From: Opitutales bacterium | GTDB lineage: Bacteria; Verrucomicrobiota; Verrucomicrobiia; Opitutales; T3Sed10-336 | DNA: 42,473 nt | Direction: 5' to 3' | NCBI GenBank assembly: GCA_007130045.1 | Contig: SLTG01000124.1 | Span: 1-42,473, forward strand | In this document: positions 7,742 to 36,927 of the stretch, in pieces | How positions within the stretch are numbered: the stretch's first letter is position 1 | Layout: each line of letters begins with the position of its first letter | Made by a program: the position numbers and the translations under genes | The notes under the pieces: generated by a model | Told to the model about the DNA's origin: nothing | What the model saw: the letters and a program-made list of their open reading frames with translations, nothing else | Database searches by the model: none

Positions 7742-8317
7742 ATTATAAACCATTATTAGGGTTGAGTTCTCTTTTGTTCCGGACACACCAAAGCAATCCC
7801 GGCTCTTCGTTCAGGATAAGAACCGGCGAAAGACCAATTTTCAGGGACGGGTTGTGCCTTGATCAAGGCACTCTATTGTTAGCAGGATGACTTGTTATGT
7901 GGAATTTTTAAATTACGCATTACCGCGCTTGTTCCTGATTTAATCTCGCCGCGCTGGAACTTCAAGAGGATATTAATTATACTCGTAAAGTGCTTCTCCG
8001 CCCGGTCTGTCTCCGGCAACCCGAATTCTTCACCAGTTCGGCAGGTGGGCTTGCCAGGCATGTTCTTGGTGACATTCCAGGAGATGCCCCATTTTTTTAC
8101 AAATTGCAAGTCGTTCGCGGAAAGGCGCAGGGGATGCGCAACTTTACGTGTATAACAAATAATAGATTGAATCTCCCTCAGTAAGTTGATTATAGTACGA
8201 AACTACAAAGCGCAGCTCTTCTACCTTTTTTTTGAAAAGGCGGCAAATGAATCCGATGCGGCGCAATGCAATGGCAGCACAACGTTATCAAAATTAATCC
8301 CACCTATCACTAATCAA
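7742..8317. other. Divergent intergenic region, no gene recognised
   Basis: This region separates two divergently transcribed exported-protein genes, so it must hold both promoters. It is visibly more AT-rich than the surrounding genes. Open frames on both strands (for example 7879-8109) resemble no family, and no ribosome-binding site precedes them. No clear sigma-70 pair could be assigned by eye. Confidence 0.45.
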
Positions 8318-9055
8318 ATGAAACCCATACCAGTTGGTTGTTACTCTCGTTCGCGTGGATTCACGCTGATCGAACTTTTGACCGTTATTGCGATTATCGG
8401 TATTCTCGCGGCTATCCTGATTCCCGTTGTCAGCCGGGTGCGCGAAAGCAGCCGTGCCGCAGTATGTACTTCGAATCTGCGACAGATTGGCAACGCGTTT
8501 CACCTTTGGTCACATGAGCATGACGATCGCCTCGTTCCGATTCGAATCACTGCGGGCCGAGAAAGCGGTCTTGAAACGGAGTTCAATTGGCACAACGAAT
8601 TCATCCCTTATGCAATGGGTCTCCCGAGGACGCCTCAGACTGGGTTCCATTTCGGGACTCTTGGATTTGAGAGCATCTTCGTGTGCCCGTCAGCCTACAC
8701 CCCGCATGTCAATGTCGCCCGACATGACCGGGCCGCCCACACTTACGCGTTGAACAAAATCACCTCGGGCGGAAACCGTTCCGGCGGTCATAGTTTTGAC
8801 AGAGCCGGCGACCTGTCCGCACCTTCGCGAACCGCTTTTGTGTTGGATGGTGGATGGTCCGCGGGGGCTAGACACTGGGTGATGAGCGTTCATCCCGAAC
8901 GCATGATGGACTTCGTGCACTCCGGTTCCGCGAATGTCGCCTTCTTCGACGGACATGTGAAACGAATCCCTGAAGGAGAAATGCCAGTGCACCCAGACCA
9001 CATCTTCTGGAAGGGAATTGGCCATAGCTTTGGAGGAACGACAATATACGATTAG
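8318..9055 (+). CDS. Prepilin-like exported protein with H-X9-DG motif
   Basis: From the ATG at 8318 the product is 245 residues. It carries a class III (type IV pilin) leader: a short basic N-terminus, then the prepilin peptidase site and hydrophobic helix [20 protein letters not shown]. The C-terminus has [12 protein letters not shown], exactly the H-X9-DG spacing that names this family, which is expanded in Planctomycetes, Verrucomicrobia and Lentisphaerae. The family is processed like type II secretion pseudopilins, but its function is largely unknown. The open frame extends 44 codons further upstream, but those residues do not resemble the family, so the internal Met is preferred. A GspE-like ATPase occurs in the window at 31799-33502, far away and in a different context. 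Confidence 0.88.
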
Positions 9056-29014: not shown

Positions 29015-31783
29015 CTACAGGCTCGGGTAGCGCTGGTTGAGCACGTTCTCGACCTCACGAAAGGCCGCTTCGATTTCTCCAATCAGACGATCCGCACCAT
29101 CCAGGCGCCCATCCCGTCCGCGTCTCTCGAGCGCCTCGCATTTCTCCTGAAGGCGAACCGCCCCGAAATTCGCGCTCATTCCCTTGACCGAATGCGCGGC
29201 GCCGCTCACCGCGCGCGCATCGCCGTTTTCGATTCCTTTGCGCATCCCGCCGATCTGCCGGGGGACGTCGGCCAGAAACATCTCCACCAATTCGCGGACA
29301 AAACCGTCGTCACCCGAATCACCCAGTTCCGCGAGCTGCGACAGCAATTTTTCCGAGAATCCCGGATCACCCGACGGCTTATCCTGAACCGACTCGGCGC
29401 CGTGCGGAGCTCTTCTGAGAGCGGACGCCAGGTCGATACTCTTGACCGGCTTGCTGAGATAATCGTTCATTCCCGCTTCGAGCGCTCGTTCGCGATCTCT
29501 CGGAAGGGCGTCCGCGGTCATACCCACAATCCACGGAACGATCGGATCATCGCTGATCCGCCGAATCCGCCGTGTCGCCTCCAGTCCGTCCATCTCCGGC
29601 ATGTGTACATCCATAAAGACGACGTCCTGCCGGTCCTTTTCCCAGCGTTCGACCGCCTGCTTCCCGGTCACTGAATGGTCGGGTTGAATCCCGAGTCGCC
29701 GCAGCAATCCCACGGCCACCTTTAGATTCACCTCGTTGTCCTCCGCGAGGAGTATCCGAAGATTCCGGTCAAAACCCGTCTGCTGCCAGGCGCTGCCATC
29801 CGTGACCTCCTCGTGCCGGGCGCCCTCCACTTCAAAGATCTCACCTAATAAGGAACTCAACTGAAACTGCCTGAAAGGTTTCGACAAATAATACAATCCT
29901 TCATCCTCCACCTCCCGTTTCAATTCGGCGTAATTCCCAAGAGAGGTCGATAGAATCATCGGCGGGGATTCAACATGGAAACGGCGCCGGACCTCGCGGG
30001 AAAACATCAGTCCGTCCATTTCGGGCATCTGCATGTCCACCACGATCACATCGTATCGCGTGCCACTCTTCAGTTTCGCCAAAGCCTCGCGGCCTCCTGG
30101 CGCTTCGTCCACTCGCATCCCCTGCCGGCTCGCCTGGTGCCTCACCATCGAGCGATTGACCTCGTTGTCGTCCACCACGAGCAAAGTTCTACCGGACAGA
30201 TCGAGATGAACGGCCCGACGGCTTGTCGAACCTCTCTCCGCCTTCAACGGCAATGTAAAATGAAACGCCGAACCCTTTCCCGGGCGACTTTCCACCCAGA
30301 TTTCACCATCGAGGAGTTCGACGAGGCGACGGCAGATCGACAGGCCCAGCCCGCTTCCTCCGTAACGCCGTGTCGTCGATGGATCGACCTGGCTGAAGGG
30401 CTTGAACAGTTTTTTCTGGTTCTCCTCGGAGATCCCGATACCGGTATCCCTCACTGTGAAGTGCAGTGGAATCCTATCCGGATCCGCGACGCTGTCGGGC
30501 AGCGAATCCGAACCCAGAAGGTTCACTTCGATGACAACTTCTCCCCGTTCGGTAAACTTGATTGAATTTCCAAGCAGATTGATCAACACCTGTCGAATTC
30601 GATTCTCATCGCTGCGAAAACGTTCGGGCAATCGCGGATCGATGAGATATCCCAGATCGAGCTTCTTCCGTCCTATTCGCCCCCCGACAACGGCGATGGC
30701 GTCCTCGATCAACGAAAGAAGGTCAAACGGCTCCGAGTCCAACTCAAGGCGCCCGGATTCAATCTTCGAGAGGTCGAGCAGATCATTGATAAGGATTAAG
30801 AGATTGTCTCCGCTGGTCTGGATCGTGGAGAGAAAATCGCGCTGCTCGTTCGTCACATCGGTCTGCAGGAGGATTTCGGTCATGCCGAGGATCCCGTTGA
30901 GCGGCGTACGAATTTCGTGGCTCATGTTCGCGAGAAAACGCGATTTCGCCAGGCTGGCGGCTTCAGCCTCCCTTCGCGCCTCGCCAAGCCGGTGCTCGAA
31001 CTCGCGCTGCTGAGTGACGTCACTGAAATACCACAACCACCCGTAAAATTGTCCCTGGGGAGAACGTGTCGCAACAAAGTACCGTTCGAAGATGCGTCCG
31101 TCCTTCAACTTCACCTCATCCTGAAACTGCTTTTGTTTCGAATGCTGAAACTCCTCGACTTTCGCTCGAAAGCCGTCCGGATCCTCGACCTTCGCAAGCA
31201 CGTGCTGAAGAAGGTCCGCCCACTGCGCGCTGGCAAAAGATTCCAGCGGTATTCCCCACATTTTCTGAAACCGCCCGTTATACGCAATCACGCGCCCTTC
31301 GTCGTCCACTACCAGAATTCCGTCGGGGGACAGCTCCATCTGCACCGAAAGAACGGCGTTGATCCGCTGCATCTCGTCGGCCCATATCCGGTGGTCGGTA
31401 ACCTCGCGCCGGACGCAAACCCACCGGACGATTTCACCGGCATCATCGCGAACCGGACTGATGTGCAAGTGTACCCAATGGGTCGAGCCATCCTTCGCGT
31501 AATTGAGCACCTCCCCCTCAAACTCCCTTCCTCGTGCGAGAGTCCTCCGGATTTGATCAAGGGTGGCCCGGTCCGTCTCAGGCCCCTGAAAAATCCTTGG
31601 CGTCCGACCGATAAGCTCCTCGCGCCGGTACCCGCTCATATCCAGGAGCTGCCGGTTCACGTAGATTATACGCGGACCGGGGGGCTGAAGGTCTTTCTCG
31701 GTAATGAGGACCGATGCCCCGAGTTGGTCGACGGCCGCATTCAGCATTTCCGAATCATCGTGCTCCCCTTTCATCCTGTCCAC
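29015..31783 (-). CDS. Hybrid sensor histidine kinase (PAS-PAS-HisKA-HATPase-REC-REC-Hpt)
   Basis: The 922-residue phosphorelay protein has no membrane segment, so it senses a cytoplasmic signal. Domains in order: PAS (about 15-130, MSGYRREELIGRTPRIFQG), PAS (about 140-265), and HisKA with the phospho-accepting His in ANMSHEIRTPLNGILGM (about 292). Then come the ATPase domain with LINLLGNSIKFTE, RDTGIGI and GGSGLGLSICRRL, and REC1 (VVDDNEVN, DMQMPEMDG). REC2 (AEDNEVN, MDVHMPEMDG) and a C-terminal Hpt with AHSVKGMSANFGA follow. The first PAS has the NYAKDGSTHWVHLHISPV hallmark of LOV/PAC-type domains but lacks an obvious photoactive Cys motif. It is the last gene of a five-gene operon, 15 bp after the GspE-like gene. 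All relay residues are present. Confidence 0.92.
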   Translation of the reverse strand: MDRMKGEHDDSEMLNAAVDQLGASVLITEKDLQPPGPRIIYVNRQLLDMSGYRREELIGRTPRIFQGPETDRATLDQIRRTLARGREFEGEVLNYAKDGSTHWVHLHISPVRDDAGEIVRWVCVRREVTDHRIWADEMQRINAVLSVQMELSPDGILVVDDEGRVIAYNGRFQKMWGIPLESFASAQWADLLQHVLAKVEDPDGFRAKVEEFQHSKQKQFQDEVKLKDGRIFERYFVATRSPQGQFYGWLWYFSDVTQQREFEHRLGEARREAEAASLAKSRFLANMSHEIRTPLNGILGMTEILLQTDVTNEQRDFLSTIQTSGDNLLILINDLLDLSKIESGRLELDSEPFDLLSLIEDAIAVVGGRIGRKKLDLGYLIDPRLPERFRSDENRIRQVLINLLGNSIKFTERGEVVIEVNLLGSDSLPDSVADPDRIPLHFTVRDTGIGISEENQKKLFKPFSQVDPSTTRRYGGSGLGLSICRRLVELLDGEIWVESRPGKGSAFHFTLPLKAERGSTSRRAVHLDLSGRTLLVVDDNEVNRSMVRHQASRQGMRVDEAPGGREALAKLKSGTRYDVIVVDMQMPEMDGLMFSREVRRRFHVESPPMILSTSLGNYAELKREVEDEGLYYLSKPFRQFQLSSLLGEIFEVEGARHEEVTDGSAWQQTGFDRNLRILLAEDNEVNLKVAVGLLRRLGIQPDHSVTGKQAVERWEKDRQDVVFMDVHMPEMDGLEATRRIRRISDDPIVPWIVGMTADALPRDRERALEAGMNDYLSKPVKSIDLASALRRAPHGAESVQDKPSGDPGFSEKLLSQLAELGDSGDDGFVRELVEMFLADVPRQIGGMRKGIENGDARAVSGAAHSVKGMSANFGAVRLQEKCEALERRGRDGRLDGADRLIGEIEAAFREVENVLNQRYPSL

Positions 31784-31798
31784 ATCTCTTCAGTCGGA

Positions 31799-33502
31799 CT
31801 ACAGAGGCGTCTCTTCGACGGTAATCCTCTCCACCTCTTCGATCGTCGTAAGTCCGAGCAGCACTTTCTTCAGTCCGTCGTAACGCATCGGTCGATATCC
31901 TCCGCGCCGTGCCGCGCGTGCAAGATCGAGCATGGAAGCGCTCTCCGAGATCATCGAGCGTATTTCATCGGTAATCACCACAAGCTCGTGAAGCGCGACC
32001 CGCCCGCGAAAACCGGTTTCACCGCATTCCGAACAGCCCTTTCCACGGAAGAACGGTACTTTCCCGAGACCTTCATCCAGGAAATAGGTCCGCATCTCAT
32101 CGCGACTCGGATAATATGGCTCGCTGCAATTCTCGCAAACGCGTCCGGCGAGCCGCTGGCTGACCACCCCCAAAATCGACGGAGCTACAATGAACGGCTC
32201 CACTCCAATCTCGATCAACCGCAAGGTCGCCTGCACCGCATTGTTGGTGTGCAGCGTCGCGAAAACCAAGTGCCCCGTCAGCGCCGCTTCGGATGCGATC
32301 TTCGCCGTCTCCAGATCCCGAATCTCTCCCACGAGGATCACGTCGGGATCCTGTCGCATCGCCGCTCTCAACACCCGGCTGAAGGTCAGCCCGATATCCG
32401 GTTTCACCTGAACCTGCGTCAATCCTTTAAGTTGATATTCAACCGGATCCTCGACGGTCATGATATTCTGCCCCGGAACGTTGATTTCGTCCAGAGCCCC
32501 GTAAAGAGTCGTGGACTTTCCCGATCCCGTGGGGCCCGTGATGAAGATAATCCCGTTGGGGCGGCGAATCAGGCGGCGGAATGGCTGAAGCACCGTTTGG
32601 GAGAACAACATCTTGTTCAGTTCCATGACCTGTCGGACACCGGAAATGTTCAGCACCCGGACAACCACCTTCTCTCCGTGTATGGACGGCACGATCGATA
32701 CCCGGAAATTCGCCTTGTTGCCGCCGAGTTCGAGCGAAAAGCGCCCGTCCTGCGGCAACCGCCTTTCCGATACGTCCAGTTCGCACATCACCTTGATCCG
32801 CGCGGCAAGCGCCGGGCCGATCGACTTGGGCAGCCGAATGGCCTCGCGCAGGATTCCATCCACGCGAATGCGGATCGGTACGCTCGCCTCCTCGGGCTGG
32901 ATGTGGATATCCGATGCGCGCTCACGCAGTGAATAATAAACCAATGCGTCAACGAGTTCGACCATTGGGACCGCTTCAGCGAGCATGGCGACGTCATCGT
33001 CCGATTGAACGCCGTCGATACGAAATCCGCTGCTGGTAATCTTTTTCAGGAGGTCATCCAGATTTTCACGGGTCTGGTACTGGATCGCGATCGCAGTCTC
33101 AATCTCCCATGGCAAGCCGAAGATCGGGCTGATCGGACTCTGGGTGATCCGTTCGAGCTGCTTCATGAAAACCGTGTCATTCGGGTCGGGCGTGATCACG
33201 GTCAGAACATCGCCAAAGTAGTACAATCCGAGCACGGTTTTCTTCTTGGCGATCTCGTGGGGAATCACTTCGACCGCTTCACGGCTGATCACGACTTCGA
33301 GCGGATCGACGTACGTCTTGCCGATCGAGTCGCCCCACAATTGGCAGGCATGGGCTTTCCCAAGGAGCCCATCGTCCATGAGCGCCCTCAAAAGATTCAA
33401 GGTTCCTCCTCCATGGCGCGCGACCAGGGCGTCGAGGTGCGCGGGAGGCACGGCCTCGGTCTCGCGCACCTTCTCGACGAAAGCCGGATTACCTTGGTCC
33501 AT
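31799..33502 (-). CDS. GspE/PilB-type secretion or pilus ATPase
   Basis: The 567-residue protein powers assembly of type II secretion or type IV pilus systems. An N-terminal GspE_N-like domain (about 1-170) precedes the ATPase. The arginine-rich segment SDIHIQPEE follows, then Walker A ITGPTGSGKSTTLYGALDEI (about 320-332), the Asp/His boxes, and Walker B VILVGEIRDLETAKIASEAA (about 390). Zinc-binding cysteines CENC and CSEC lie near 459 and 489. The composition matches GspE/PilB, not the PilT retraction ATPase, which lacks the N-terminal domain and zinc site. Unusually, the neighbours are two-component genes, with no secretin, inner-membrane or pilin genes beside it. Its start overlaps the small upstream gene by 14 bp. 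Confidence 0.92.
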   Translation of the reverse strand: MDQGNPAFVEKVRETEAVPPAHLDALVARHGGGTLNLLRALMDDGLLGKAHACQLWGDSIGKTYVDPLEVVISREAVEVIPHEIAKKKTVLGLYYFGDVLTVITPDPNDTVFMKQLERITQSPISPIFGLPWEIETAIAIQYQTRENLDDLLKKITSSGFRIDGVQSDDDVAMLAEAVPMVELVDALVYYSLRERASDIHIQPEEASVPIRIRVDGILREAIRLPKSIGPALAARIKVMCELDVSERRLPQDGRFSLELGGNKANFRVSIVPSIHGEKVVVRVLNISGVRQVMELNKMLFSQTVLQPFRRLIRRPNGIIFITGPTGSGKSTTLYGALDEINVPGQNIMTVEDPVEYQLKGLTQVQVKPDIGLTFSRVLRAAMRQDPDVILVGEIRDLETAKIASEAALTGHLVFATLHTNNAVQATLRLIEIGVEPFIVAPSILGVVSQRLAGRVCENCSEPYYPSRDEMRTYFLDEGLGKVPFFRGKGCSECGETGFRGRVALHELVVITDEIRSMISESASMLDLARAARRGGYRPMRYDGLKKVLLGLTTIEEVERITVEETPL

Positions 33503-33719
33503 TCTTCTCCTTCTCCTTTTCCCTCCAGGCCGCGAACATGGCCGTAATCTGATCCTGACTCAGAAGGTTGCCGCCCTCGCGCACCGACTCGCGGTCCCTG
33601 GCAATCTCGTCCAACATGGCCGGGAGCGAATAACGCACGGCCGAAAGGGGATTCGGCGTTTCCGTCGGTTCGTTGCCGGGTGGCTGATCCGTTTCTTCCG
33701 GCATAGGCGCTTGCATCAT
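33489..33719 (-). CDS. Small protein of unknown function in the signalling operon
   Basis: The 76-residue product is acidic and Pro-rich at the start (MQAPMPEETDQPPGNEPTET) and helical and charged at the end (LSQDQITAMFAAWREKEKEK). There is no signal peptide, membrane helix or known motif. Reality is supported by packing: its ATG overlaps the stop of the response regulator as ATGA (33716-33719), and its 3' end overlaps the GspE-like start by 14 bp. That implies coupled translation between the three genes. It may be an adaptor linking the regulator to the ATPase, which is inference from position only. Confidence 0.7.
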   Translation of the reverse strand: MMQAPMPEETDQPPGNEPTETPNPLSAVRYSLPAMLDEIARDRESVREGGNLLSQDQITAMFAAWREKEKEKNGPR

Positions 33720-34114
33720 TCGGACCGACCGTGCCCGTGGTCGGCAAGGGTGGTCCGCAAAATCTCAACGATCTGTTCTTTCGGAGTATCCTTTCGGATG
33801 AAATTGCTGGCGCCGGAGTGCATGCATTCCCGGACCGCGTAATCGGTGGCTTTCGCGGTGAGCATAATAATCACGGTCCCGGTATCGAACTCCCTCATTT
33901 TCTGAAGCGCGGCCACTCCGTCCAAATTGGGCATATTGATGTCCATCATCACCGCATCGGGACGCTCGGACCGCAGCATCTCGACCGCCTCCTCCCCGTT
34001 TCGGGATTCGATCACTTCAAAATCACCCGATTGCCTGAGAAGCGCCTTCAGAAAAGCACGGATATGATCTTCGTCATCCACCAGCAGAATCTTCGTTTTC
34101 GCGCTCATTGTCAT
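33716..34114 (-). CDS. Single-domain response regulator (CheY-like)
   Basis: The 132-residue protein is one receiver domain without an output domain. The acidic pocket is ILLVDDED (D13, D14), the phospho-acceptor is D58 in AVMMDINMPNLDG, the switch Thr is in IIMLTAKA, and the conserved Lys is in SNFIRKDTPKEQI. It would be phosphorylated by one of the operon's kinases and act through protein contact. It lies 16 bp after the REC-kinase gene and overlaps the next gene as ATGA. CheY, Spo0F-like relay or pilus-control roles are all possible. Neighbouring the GspE-type ATPase makes control of a motor-like ATPase attractive, but that is inference. Confidence 0.9.
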   Translation of the reverse strand: MTMSAKTKILLVDDEDHIRAFLKALLRQSGDFEVIESRNGEEAVEMLRSERPDAVMMDINMPNLDGVAALQKMREFDTGTVIIMLTAKATDYAVRECMHSGASNFIRKDTPKEQIVEILRTTLADHGHGRSE

Positions 34115-34130
34115 AATTTTCCGAATTCCG

Positions 34131-35321
34131 CTATCGCGGCACGGTCACTTTGAACTCGCACCCTTTGTCAGGTAAATTGCCGACATTCAGACTACCGCCG
34201 TGAGCTTCGACAATCTTCCGGCAAATCGCAAGCCCAAGGCCGGTACTTTTTTCGCCCGCGGTCGGACGAACCGACGTCTTCCCATAGTCCTGAAACAACC
34301 GGTCCCTTTCGGCTTCAGGAATTCCCGGCCCTTCGTCGCGCACGGAAAAATACCCTCCCTGCTCCGAACACCCCCACTCGACCTCGATTCGCGCACCAGC
34401 CGGAGAAAACTTGATCGCATTGCTGAGAATATTTTCCGCCACCTGCTTCATGCGAACGCTGTCGAAAACGCACCGCACCGGAGAGGGAGGAGCCTTCATT
34501 TCAATAGTCATTTCTTTGCCTTCGGCATGCCCGCGGTAGAGAAAAACCGCCATGTTGATGACTTCGCCAAGGTCGTTTTCCTTCTTGCAAAGCTTAAGCT
34601 CTCCTGCTTCAATCGATGACAGATCCAGCAGATCGTCGATCAATTCGAGCATCGACGTTGCCGCCGAGGCGATAAACGCCGCCATCTCTTTCTGCTCGGC
34701 ATTCACCGCCCCCACCGCCTCGTCCCTCAGCATTTCGGCGAAGCCCTGTATCGAAATCATGGGATTCCGAAGATCATGCGCCGTCACCCCGAGGAGTCGG
34801 TTGCGCGCCTTTACCGCGGCATCAAGGTCGGCGATGATCGCCGCCTGCCGCGCGTGGAGCTCCCGAAGCTGCAAATGCGTCCGCACGCGCGCGAGCGTCT
34901 CGCGCGGCTGAAACGGCTTTGGAATATAGTCCGCGCCGCCCGCCTCGAATCCGGCGACGATATCGTCGGCGTCCTTGCGCGCGGTGATAAATATAACCGG
35001 CGCCTCCGCGCTTGCCTCGGCACTCTTCAGTTGGCGGCAGACCTCCAGCCCGTCAATCCCCGGAAGCACGACGTCCAGAAGCACGAGATCGAACGAAAGT
35101 TCGTCAAAGCGCTCGAAAAAACGCTCGCCGGACTCGAACCACGTTATCGAATAACCTTCGCGCTCCAGGATCTTCTGAAGAATCTTCGCATTGAGCGCGT
35201 CGTCTTCGATCAACACGAGATGCTTCCGTTTCTCCTCTAATATTGAAGGTGCGCCCGAACGGTCGGTTGATTCACCTGAAATAGCGCCGGACGGCTTGTT
35301 CGCTTTCGTATAGGCTTCCAC
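34131..35321 (-). CDS. Response regulator-histidine kinase fusion (REC-HisKA-HATPase)
   Basis: The 396-residue cytoplasmic protein starts with a receiver domain (HLVLIEDDALNAKILQKIL; phospho-acceptor near D79 in DLVLLDVVLPGIDG) linked by a coiled coil to a histidine kinase. The HisKA box is GVTAHDLRNPMISIQGFAEM (His near 183), and the ATPase domain has ENILSNAIKFSPAGARIEV, RDEGPGIPEAE and STGLGLAICRKIVEAHGG. An N-terminal receiver means the kinase is itself switched by another kinase, probably through the relay in the same operon. It is the first gene of the leftward five-gene cluster. The HDLRNP H-box marks the HPK group with a DL rather than EI after the His. Confidence 0.92.
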   Translation of the reverse strand: MEAYTKANKPSGAISGESTDRSGAPSILEEKRKHLVLIEDDALNAKILQKILEREGYSITWFESGERFFERFDELSFDLVLLDVVLPGIDGLEVCRQLKSAEASAEAPVIFITARKDADDIVAGFEAGGADYIPKPFQPRETLARVRTHLQLRELHARQAAIIADLDAAVKARNRLLGVTAHDLRNPMISIQGFAEMLRDEAVGAVNAEQKEMAAFIASAATSMLELIDDLLDLSSIEAGELKLCKKENDLGEVINMAVFLYRGHAEGKEMTIEMKAPPSPVRCVFDSVRMKQVAENILSNAIKFSPAGARIEVEWGCSEQGGYFSVRDEGPGIPEAERDRLFQDYGKTSVRPTAGEKSTGLGLAICRKIVEAHGGSLNVGNLPDKGCEFKVTVPR

Positions 35322-35431: not shown

Positions 35432-36271
35432 TCAATAGTTGAACACGTTGTAGCGCCGTTCGTTTTCAATGGTGGTCAGCGGACCGTGTCCCGGCGCCAC
35501 TACCGTTTCCCCGTCCATTTCCACGAGGATGCGCCGGACGTTCGACAGGAGTTCCCGGGGCGAATGGAACCCGCACGCGACGGACCCGGCGAAGATCAGA
35601 TCCCCGGCCACCAGAACTCCGCCCGAATCCGCCGCGCTCTCCCGCCGCACATGATACGAGATGTGACGCTCCGAGTGCCCGCGTGTATCGATCGCTTGAA
35701 TCCAAAAACCCTGAATACGAATCGAATCCCCTCCTGACAGCAACGCAACCCCGGAACTGCTGCCGGGGGGAGCGTAAACGGGAATATCGGGGTTGTGTTT
35801 CAGAAGTTCGCCCAATCCGCCCGCGTGGTCCGCATCCCAATGCGTCAGGAATATGGCCGCAATCTCGCGTATCGACGATGGCCAGGCATCCATCAACTCC
35901 CCGTACCCATTGCCGGTATCAAACATGATGCCCGTCGGGGATCCGCGCGCGGCGATAAGAAACGCGTTGACCCGCCCGACACTGAACGGCATCGCCAGGG
36001 TATGGAGTTCGAACGGAAGCCCCTTGAAATCCGGCAGCGGATAGCGTCCGCCGCTCAAAGCCGACAGGCCGACTTCGTTTAACTTGAGGACGTTCGCCAG
36101 GTTGCGCAACTCCCCCGGCGTCAGATCGTACCGGTAATCCTCCGCGTCTTTGATCTTGGAAATGGAAACACCGGATTCCCTGGCGAGGCACTCCTCCGTC
36201 ATCCCGGAATACTTCATCGCCTTCTCCAGCACGTCTCCCAGTTCGTCCTCCAACTCCGAGTAATTCACCAT
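35432..36271 (-). CDS. HTH-metallo-beta-lactamase-fold fusion protein
   Basis: The ATG at 36271 is chosen because GGAGG precedes it by 5 nt. The protein is then 279 residues. An N-terminal XRE-like helix-turn-helix (about 5-72; MTEECLARESGVSISKIKDA) is fused to a metallo-beta-lactamase fold. The metal site is H144-W-D-A-D-H149, H199 (TRGHSERH), D224 (VAGDLIF) and H262 (APGHGPLTT). The canonical motif is H-x-H-x-D-H; here the second histidine is Asp (D146). Hydrolases of this fold cleave thioesters, lactones or phosphodiesters. The fusion suggests a metabolite-sensing regulator or an enzyme tethered to DNA. The gene is divergent from pyrE with only ~70 bp between starts. Confidence 0.88.
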   Translation of the reverse strand: MVNYSELEDELGDVLEKAMKYSGMTEECLARESGVSISKIKDAEDYRYDLTPGELRNLANVLKLNEVGLSALSGGRYPLPDFKGLPFELHTLAMPFSVGRVNAFLIAARGSPTGIMFDTGNGYGELMDAWPSSIREIAAIFLTHWDADHAGGLGELLKHNPDIPVYAPPGSSSGVALLSGGDSIRIQGFWIQAIDTRGHSERHISYHVRRESAADSGGVLVAGDLIFAGSVACGFHSPRELLSNVRRILVEMDGETVVAPGHGPLTTIENERRYNVFNY

Positions 36272-36276
36272 GACTG

Positions 36277-36281
36277 CCTCC
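36277..36281 (-). promoter_or_regulatory. Shine-Dalgarno that fixes the HTH-MBL start
   Basis: GGAGG on the minus strand lies 5 nt upstream of the ATG at 36271. It is the reason for choosing this start over the upstream in-frame Met codons at 36286 and 36367, which have no such site. Confidence 0.7.
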
Positions 36282-36342
36282 AGCATAAGCGATAAATCCG
36301 GCCCATGGCAAAATTCATTTTGTTTTTTCACGGCGTTTGACC

Positions 36343-36927
36343 ATGATTCGGCACCAAATGCCAACATCCGAAGATGAAGCTCTCGATTTGTTCCGGAAAA
36401 GCGGCGCTCTTCTCAAGGGGCACTTCGTACTGCGTTCCGGACTGCACAGCGAATATTTCTTCCAGTGCGCGCAGGTCTGCCAGAACATGGAATTCGTGGG
36501 ACGGCTGGCCGAGCTCCTTCTGGAAAAACTCGACCACGTCGCCTTCGACACGGTTCTGGCGCCGGCGTTGGGCGGGCTGGTCATCGGTCAGGAGGTCGCG
36601 CGCCAAAGCGGAAGCCGCTTTATTTTTGTGGAGAAGGTCAATGACCGCCTCGCGCTTCGCCGCAATTTCAGGATCGAACCGGGAGAGAAAATCCTGGTGG
36701 TGGAAGACGTCGTGACCCGTGGAGGTCGCGCCCGCGAAGCGATCTCGATCGCAGCCGGCCACGGCGGCGCCCCCCAGGCGCTGGCGGTGCTGGTGGACCG
36801 AAGCGACGACAAATCATCATTCTCCATCCCTATGATCTCCCTGGTCAAACTGAGCTTCCCATCCTACCCGGCGGACGCTCTGCCGGAACATCTTTCCGTT
36901 ACTCCCGCGATCAAACCCGGAAGCTGA
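36343..36927 (+). CDS. pyrE: Orotate phosphoribosyltransferase
   Basis: The enzyme joins orotate to PRPP, giving orotidine 5'-phosphate in pyrimidine synthesis. From the ATG at 36343 the product is 194 residues. It shows the N-terminal GALLKGHFVLRSGLHSEYFF, the catalytic-loop region FIFVEKVNDRLALRR, and the PRPP-binding ILVVEDVVTRGGRAREAI with the two acidic residues. An ATG five codons further in (36358) is an alternative start, and a TTG two codons upstream is less likely. No ribosome-binding site is clear. Its promoter must overlap that of the divergent HTH-MBL gene. Confidence 0.93.
   Translation: MIRHQMPTSEDEALDLFRKSGALLKGHFVLRSGLHSEYFFQCAQVCQNMEFVGRLAELLLEKLDHVAFDTVLAPALGGLVIGQEVARQSGSRFIFVEKVNDRLALRRNFRIEPGEKILVVEDVVTRGGRAREAISIAAGHGGAPQALAVLVDRSDDKSSFSIPMISLVKLSFPSYPADALPEHLSVTPAIKPGS

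Follow-up and report, generated by a model that had tools for sequence, protein, structure and literature searches.

Organization of the operon

The locus analysed here raises the question of why a motor ATPase of the GspE/PilB type is encoded among the genes of a phosphorelay, and through which contact the phosphorelay could control the motor. The window, a stretch of 42,473 nucleotides from an Opitutales bacterium, is an entire contig (C2) of a 3.4-Mb assembly in 146 contigs. Five open reading frames lie head to tail on the minus strand between positions 29015 and 35321, and they are spaced, in operon order, by a 16-bp gap, a 4-bp overlap, a 14-bp overlap, and a 15-bp gap. The layout and domains given in a preliminary description of this DNA were borne out by the ORF and domain check. 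The features are as follows.

35432..36367, minus strand: HTH + metallo-beta-lactamase protein, 110 bp upstream of the operon (domain search)
34131..35321, minus strand: REC-HisKA-HATPase histidine kinase, 396 aa, GTG start (domain search)
33716..34114, minus strand: CheY-like single-domain response regulator, one REC domain, 132 aa (domain search)
33489..33719, minus strand: putative adaptor of 76 aa, termed SM, between the CheY and ATPase genes
33585..33638, minus strand: conserved SM segment VRYSL..(M/L)L.E(I/V)..(D/E)R.S, proposed ATPase-docking half (conservation; helix in the L059 model)
33534..33563, minus strand: FliM-like SM motif LSQDQITAMF, proposed CheY-P binding half (likeness to FliM N-termini of the same order)
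31799..33502, minus strand: PilB/GspE-type hexameric motor ATPase, 567 aa, T2SSE domain and degenerate MshEN N-domain (domain search)
29015..31783, minus strand: hybrid kinase PAS-PAS-HisKA-HATPase-REC-REC-Hpt, 922 aa (domain search)

The true start of the REC-HisKA-HATPase kinase may be further in than the GTG codon. The transcription unit may begin with the HTH + metallo-beta-lactamase gene, which was retained at the locus only in two near relatives. As had been described, no pilin gene was found inside the operon, and no secretin or platform protein gene anywhere on the contig; its only prepilin-like gene, of the DUF1559 type, is located at 8186-9055, 20 kb from the operon. The absence of pilus parts is nevertheless a local one, as some relatives carry prepilin genes in or beside the operon.

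Conservation of the CheY-SM-ATPase trio

The SM profile alone was used as the query against 273 Opitutales genomes, and matches were obtained in 55 of them. The order CheY-SM-ATPase was observed in all 31 contexts newly fetched from these matches. A scan of the GTDB species genomes with the ATPase N-domain alignment yielded 49 loci, each of which contained both CheY and SM (49/49); 48 were titled as members of Verrucomicrobiota, mostly Opitutaceae/Opitutia, and one only as 'bacterium'. Since the scan relied on two peptide patterns, distant members may exist in other phyla. In a sample of 388 genomes of the phylum outside Opitutales, four weak matches were detected, two of which (L222 and L225) retain the trio and two (L223 and L224) the CheY-SM pair.

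Among 25 orthologues, the ATPase gene was preceded by a CheY-like gene and a small ORF even though the wider flanks varied, with lipid A kinase, SMC, S-AdoMet synthetase, and LptF among the neighbouring genes. The module is patchy: of the four other members of the family that are more than 90% complete, G005 and G007 lack it. Because the order recurs in every locus examined, the linkage of CheY, SM, and ATPase is far beyond chance. The trio is, with near certainty, a conserved unit, which many lineages extend with the REC kinase and Opitutaceae with an Hpt protein. The whole five-gene set, in contrast, was rejected as the conserved unit, because the seven-domain, 922-aa hybrid kinase adjoins the ATPase only in family f1 and is a family-specific addition.

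Identity of the ATPase and the filament served

Seven ATPases of GspE/PilB size are encoded in the genome (the operon copy and six more), together with four of PilT size, and four platform proteins and four secretins are encoded elsewhere in it. The operon ATPase is thus not the sole GspE/PilB copy displaced among unrelated genes: that reading was rejected on the copy number, and the neighbours are conserved in relatives. Its orthologues in 88 relatives scored 522-962 bits with 46-74% identity, and the next copies scored from 421 bits. In the maximum-likelihood tree, the operon ATPase subfamily formed one clade (100/99), including three Verrucomicrobiota copies from outside Opitutales; the PilB-like ATPase of the main pilus cluster, encoded on C92, was placed as its nearest paralogue but was weakly supported (82/64).

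The T2SSE domain of the window ATPase scored 404.8 bits against a cut-off of 24.9. The Walker A/B, Asp, and His boxes are intact, and the GPTGSGK, GEIRD, TGH, and TLH columns are invariant. The N-terminal MshEN/N1 domain, which is absent from PilT, was detected in the window ATPase (PF05157, 5e-8) and was present in 11 of 11 members. The equivalog cut-offs of TIGR02538 (PilB; 501.2 versus 675.65) and TIGR02533 (GspE; 522.3 versus 630.25) were both missed, and the nearest solved structures were those of Thermus thermophilus PilF and PilB. By inspection of the family alignment, the N-domain does not keep the RLG and Q positions of the two c-di-GMP motifs RLG...LxxQ, which suggests that CheY input may replace c-di-GMP input in this ATPase.

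Prepilin genes were found beside the trio in L049, L050, L052, L053, L057, and L225. In the f5 and f9 genomes, a prepilin-like gene (GFTLIELAIVGLIVGILGALAIP) directly follows the ATPase gene with a membrane protein gene beside it, and in L057, the f3 genome, the gene for the membrane protein lies between the ATPase gene and the prepilin-like gene. The prepilin-like and membrane protein genes precede CheY in L225, and the order in L223 is CheY, SM, two prepilin-like genes, a gene for a 427-aa protein whose N-terminus looks PilX-like by eye, and ATPase. The Opitutaceae encode this prepilin and membrane protein at other sites in the genome. The prepilin family occurred in 48 of the 55 genomes with SM and in 42 of the 218 without it (Fisher 5e-21), a comparison that ignores kinship and genome size and thus lends weak support only. 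Since prepilin genes adjoin the ATPase gene in several lineages, it is likely that the ATPase powers a type IV filament.

Conserved segments and the FliM-like motif of SM

SM matched no Pfam or NCBIfam family, including the FliM middle and C-terminal domains of Pfam, and the comparison with solved structures gave a chance match only (E 0.36). The alignment revealed two conserved blocks, (V)RYSLxxLLxEVxxERxxS and, in the C-terminal half, the FliM-like L(D/S/N)QxEIxxLF, after which comes a basic tail. The second block reads LSQDQITAMF in the window, and LDQQEIGKLF and LQQDDIDALF (the latter in the outgroup L225) in relatives, and the FliM N-termini of Opitutales read LDQSEIDKLL, LDQSEIDRLL, LSQSDIDQLM, and LSQDDIDSLL. 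A position-specific scoring matrix (PSSM), built only from eight FliM N-termini of Opitutales, gave a median of 12.2 bits on SM and about -3 bits on shuffled SM, and on 1206 random 70-aa windows the 99th percentile was 7.9 bits and the maximum 11.2 bits. The motif of the window SM scored 10.7 bits, which is near the limit, at about the 99.9th percentile of the random windows. SM ranked first by this matrix among the 23 protein families of these loci. The Asp of the FliM sequence EIDALL is not conserved in SM, which often has EIGKLF. The C-terminal helix of CheY is mostly acidic (mean -2.6) and the tail of SM basic (mean +5.5), and the two charges were correlated with r = -0.43 over 55 related pairs, uncorrected for kinship.

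SM forms the N-terminal part of the ATPase chain in the f3, f8, f21, and f22 genomes, where the two are read in one frame and the protein totals 617-633 aa. The four fused ATPases formed a single subclade in the tree (100/99), and the fusion therefore probably arose once. We consider it highly probable that SM works together with the ATPase and, from the likeness of the motif, probable that it binds CheY through the FliM-like segment.

Structure models were obtained with AF2. For the CheY-SM chain, the one in-frame stop in L054 was read as a residue, which served as a tether; CheY was modelled confidently, and SM was helical with a pLDDT of 57-71, the motif reaching only 57-61. In the model of the naturally fused ATPase L059, the RYSL helix had a pLDDT of 80-90 and the FliM-like part 44-50, a predicted pattern that fits one docked and one exposed half of SM.

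Two other functions of SM were weighed against these data. It could be a CheZ-like CheY phosphatase or a phosphate sink, with the regulator contacting the ATPase by another surface in the manner of EmvR or the PATAN regulators. CheZ binds CheY by a short C-terminal peptide that resembles the SM motif. EmvR is not known to use an adaptor for binding PilB (PMC11973254). However, SM has no conserved catalytic Gln or Asn, several members having A, S, R, or T in place of the motif Gln, and its fusion to the ATPase suits an adaptor better than a free phosphatase, so that this function appears unlikely. Alternatively, SM could serve as an N-terminal domain by which the ATPase docks to some other component of the pilus machinery, much as GspE binds GspL, and its FliM likeness would then reflect convergence on a generic amphipathic helix. 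Such a domain would fit the lack of conservation of the FliM Asp and the finding that no part of SM is better conserved or better modelled than the RYSL helix. It is nonetheless improbable, because the CheY neighbour is obligate in every locus, the PSSM statistics favour a genuine motif, and the outgroup L225 has the full QDDIDALF.

Kinases, Hpt proteins, and the response regulator

As in the window, the REC-kinase gene is located upstream of CheY in L039, L040, L043, and the Opitutaceae loci, in the last of which the gene order is REC-kinase, CheY, SM, ATPase, and then usually Hpt. A stand-alone Hpt protein often replaces the hybrid kinase outside its family; the hybrid kinase itself is likely to be both a phosphorelay input and the Hpt donor.

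The window CheY has the features of a single-domain response regulator, namely one REC domain, the acidic pair, the phospho-Asp, Thr/Ser, and Lys, and the acidic pair, phospho-Asp, and Lys are invariant across the aligned family of paired CheY proteins. No DNA-binding or other output domain was found in it by domain search. A flagellar CheY was considered and rejected, because the phosphorylation residues are kept while no FliM was found in the window genome. It is very unlikely that the target of CheY and the kinases is transcription or something else and that only co-expression links them to the ATPase: kinase genes do differ between lineages and phosphorelays often neighbour unrelated genes, but this CheY is without a DNA-binding domain and the CheY-SM-ATPase order survives many different flanking contexts.

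Proposed mechanism

In the reading that we regard as fairly probable, the locus encodes a phosphorelay-controlled motor of the pilus type in which CheY-P is read through the FliM-like peptide of SM. Signals would enter via the REC-kinase and the PAS-PAS hybrid kinase, or in Opitutaceae via the REC-kinase and a separate Hpt protein, and the phosphate would reach the CheY-like regulator by way of REC and Hpt domains. Once phosphorylated, the regulator would dock on the FliM-like motif of SM, which the RYSL helix may hold on the N-terminal region of the ATPase, the two being a single chain in one subclade. Binding of CheY-P would then recruit, activate, or restrain the ATPase, which may build a filament like that of type IV pili, using a platform whose gene lies at another site in the genome. 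We infer the order of phosphotransfer, the CheY-SM binding, the SM-ATPase docking, the sign of the effect, and the filament served. The suggestion in the preliminary description that the ATPase is directly controlled by a phosphorelay is strongly supported by the conservation of the trio, the SM-ATPase fusion, and the FliM-like motif, but not in the form of a five-gene unit.

Comparison with known systems

The window ATPase shares with PilB, PilF, and GspE the T2SSE domain, an MshEN-like N-domain, and intact Walker A/B and His boxes. It differs from them in falling in a clade apart from the other copies of the genome (100/99) and in being encoded with CheY and SM, not with a platform protein and a retraction ATPase.

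The EIDALL motif of FliM binds CheY in the groove between alpha4 and alpha5 (PMC9126983). SM resembles the FliM N-terminal peptide in its LxQxEIxxLL/F core, its helix, its genetically paired CheY, and its putative attachment to a motor, whereas it is without the FliM body, carries the motif in its C-terminal half, does not conserve the Asp, and has a basic tail after the motif.

Control of pilus motors by response regulators is known from several bacteria. EmvR of Xanthomonas oryzae is, like the window CheY, a response regulator with a single domain, and its target is a PilB-type ATPase: by binding to PilB it reduces the ATPase activity. It differs in being an orphan regulator, and it is not known to have an adaptor peptide (PMC11973254). 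In Synechocystis, the PATAN regulators and PixG contact the PilB1-PilC pilus motor, but there a PATAN domain is present and no FliM-like adaptor is described (review PMC12288463). In the Pil-Chp system of Pseudomonas, PilB is controlled by the CheY-like regulators PilG and PilH, as proposed for the window, although the input is of the CheA-type chemosensory kind (PMC12632253). PilG affects the localisation of PilB, and no contact with PilB was reported for PilG or PilH in a 2024 review (PMC11656802).

According to the preliminary description, the module would be an undescribed one. This holds only in part, since direct control of PilB by response regulators has already been reported; the putative adaptor with a FliM-type CheY-binding motif is the new part, and the open-licence literature yielded no description of a pilus motor that carries a FliM-like peptide.

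A short co-encoded adaptor, sometimes fused to the motor, offers a simple and concrete way in which regulator and motor could make contact, and it reduces the question of that contact to two small proteins and one motor, which can be tested. More tentatively, Verrucomicrobiota may have evolved a dedicated switch in which a FliM-type peptide, joined to a type IV pilus motor at its N-terminus, replaces c-di-GMP as the input, giving a CheY-switched pilus in cells that lack flagella; we hold this to be possible, if somewhat doubtful. The adaptor itself suggests that flagella and pili could share one peptide code for switching.

Prepilin-like genes and additional ATPases near the trio

The conserved trio of CheY-like regulator, small protein and ATPase is adjoined in some lineages by a member of a prepilin family that conserves a DDGxxxTG motif close to the C-terminus and by its partner gene, which encodes an unnamed membrane protein (cluster 5), but in Opitutaceae this pair lies away from the trio. 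At locus L259, the pair adjoins a TolC-like gene.

Prepilin family members with the DDGxxxTG motif
L049:6439-6954
L053:8789-9313
L057:5650-6153
L225:2176-2652

At L049 and L052, a second PilB-like ATPase with a REC-kinase of its own adjoins the trio.

Second, divergent PilB-like ATPases, on the strand opposite to the trio
L049:9543-11231
L052:9555-11240

The trio itself occurs twice in each of the genomes G227 and G231 (L135/L148 and L136/L149). The small protein or the ATPase carries stops, deletions or frameshifts at L058, L062 and L133, which are possibly decaying modules or assembly errors.

Other neighboring and candidate partner genes

The position of the HTH/metallo-beta-lactamase gene upstream of the REC-kinase was retained only in L039 and L040. 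The window's prepilin-like protein, 20 kb from the operon, is of a type common in Verrucomicrobial genomes, and the insertion in L223 belongs to a non-Opitutales genome. An orphan platform protein in the window's own genome (G000), adjoined by a 426-aa REC-containing regulator, is a candidate partner platform.

Window 35432-36367 (-), fusion of an HTH with a metallo-beta-lactamase fold, separated by 110 bp from the REC-kinase downstream
Window 8186-9055 (+), prepilin-like protein that partially matches DUF1559 and has an N-methylation motif
L223:2241-4565, pair of prepilin-like genes plus a protein whose N-terminus is PilX-like, between small protein and ATPase
L258:5712-6815 (G000 C39), orphan PilC/GspF platform protein
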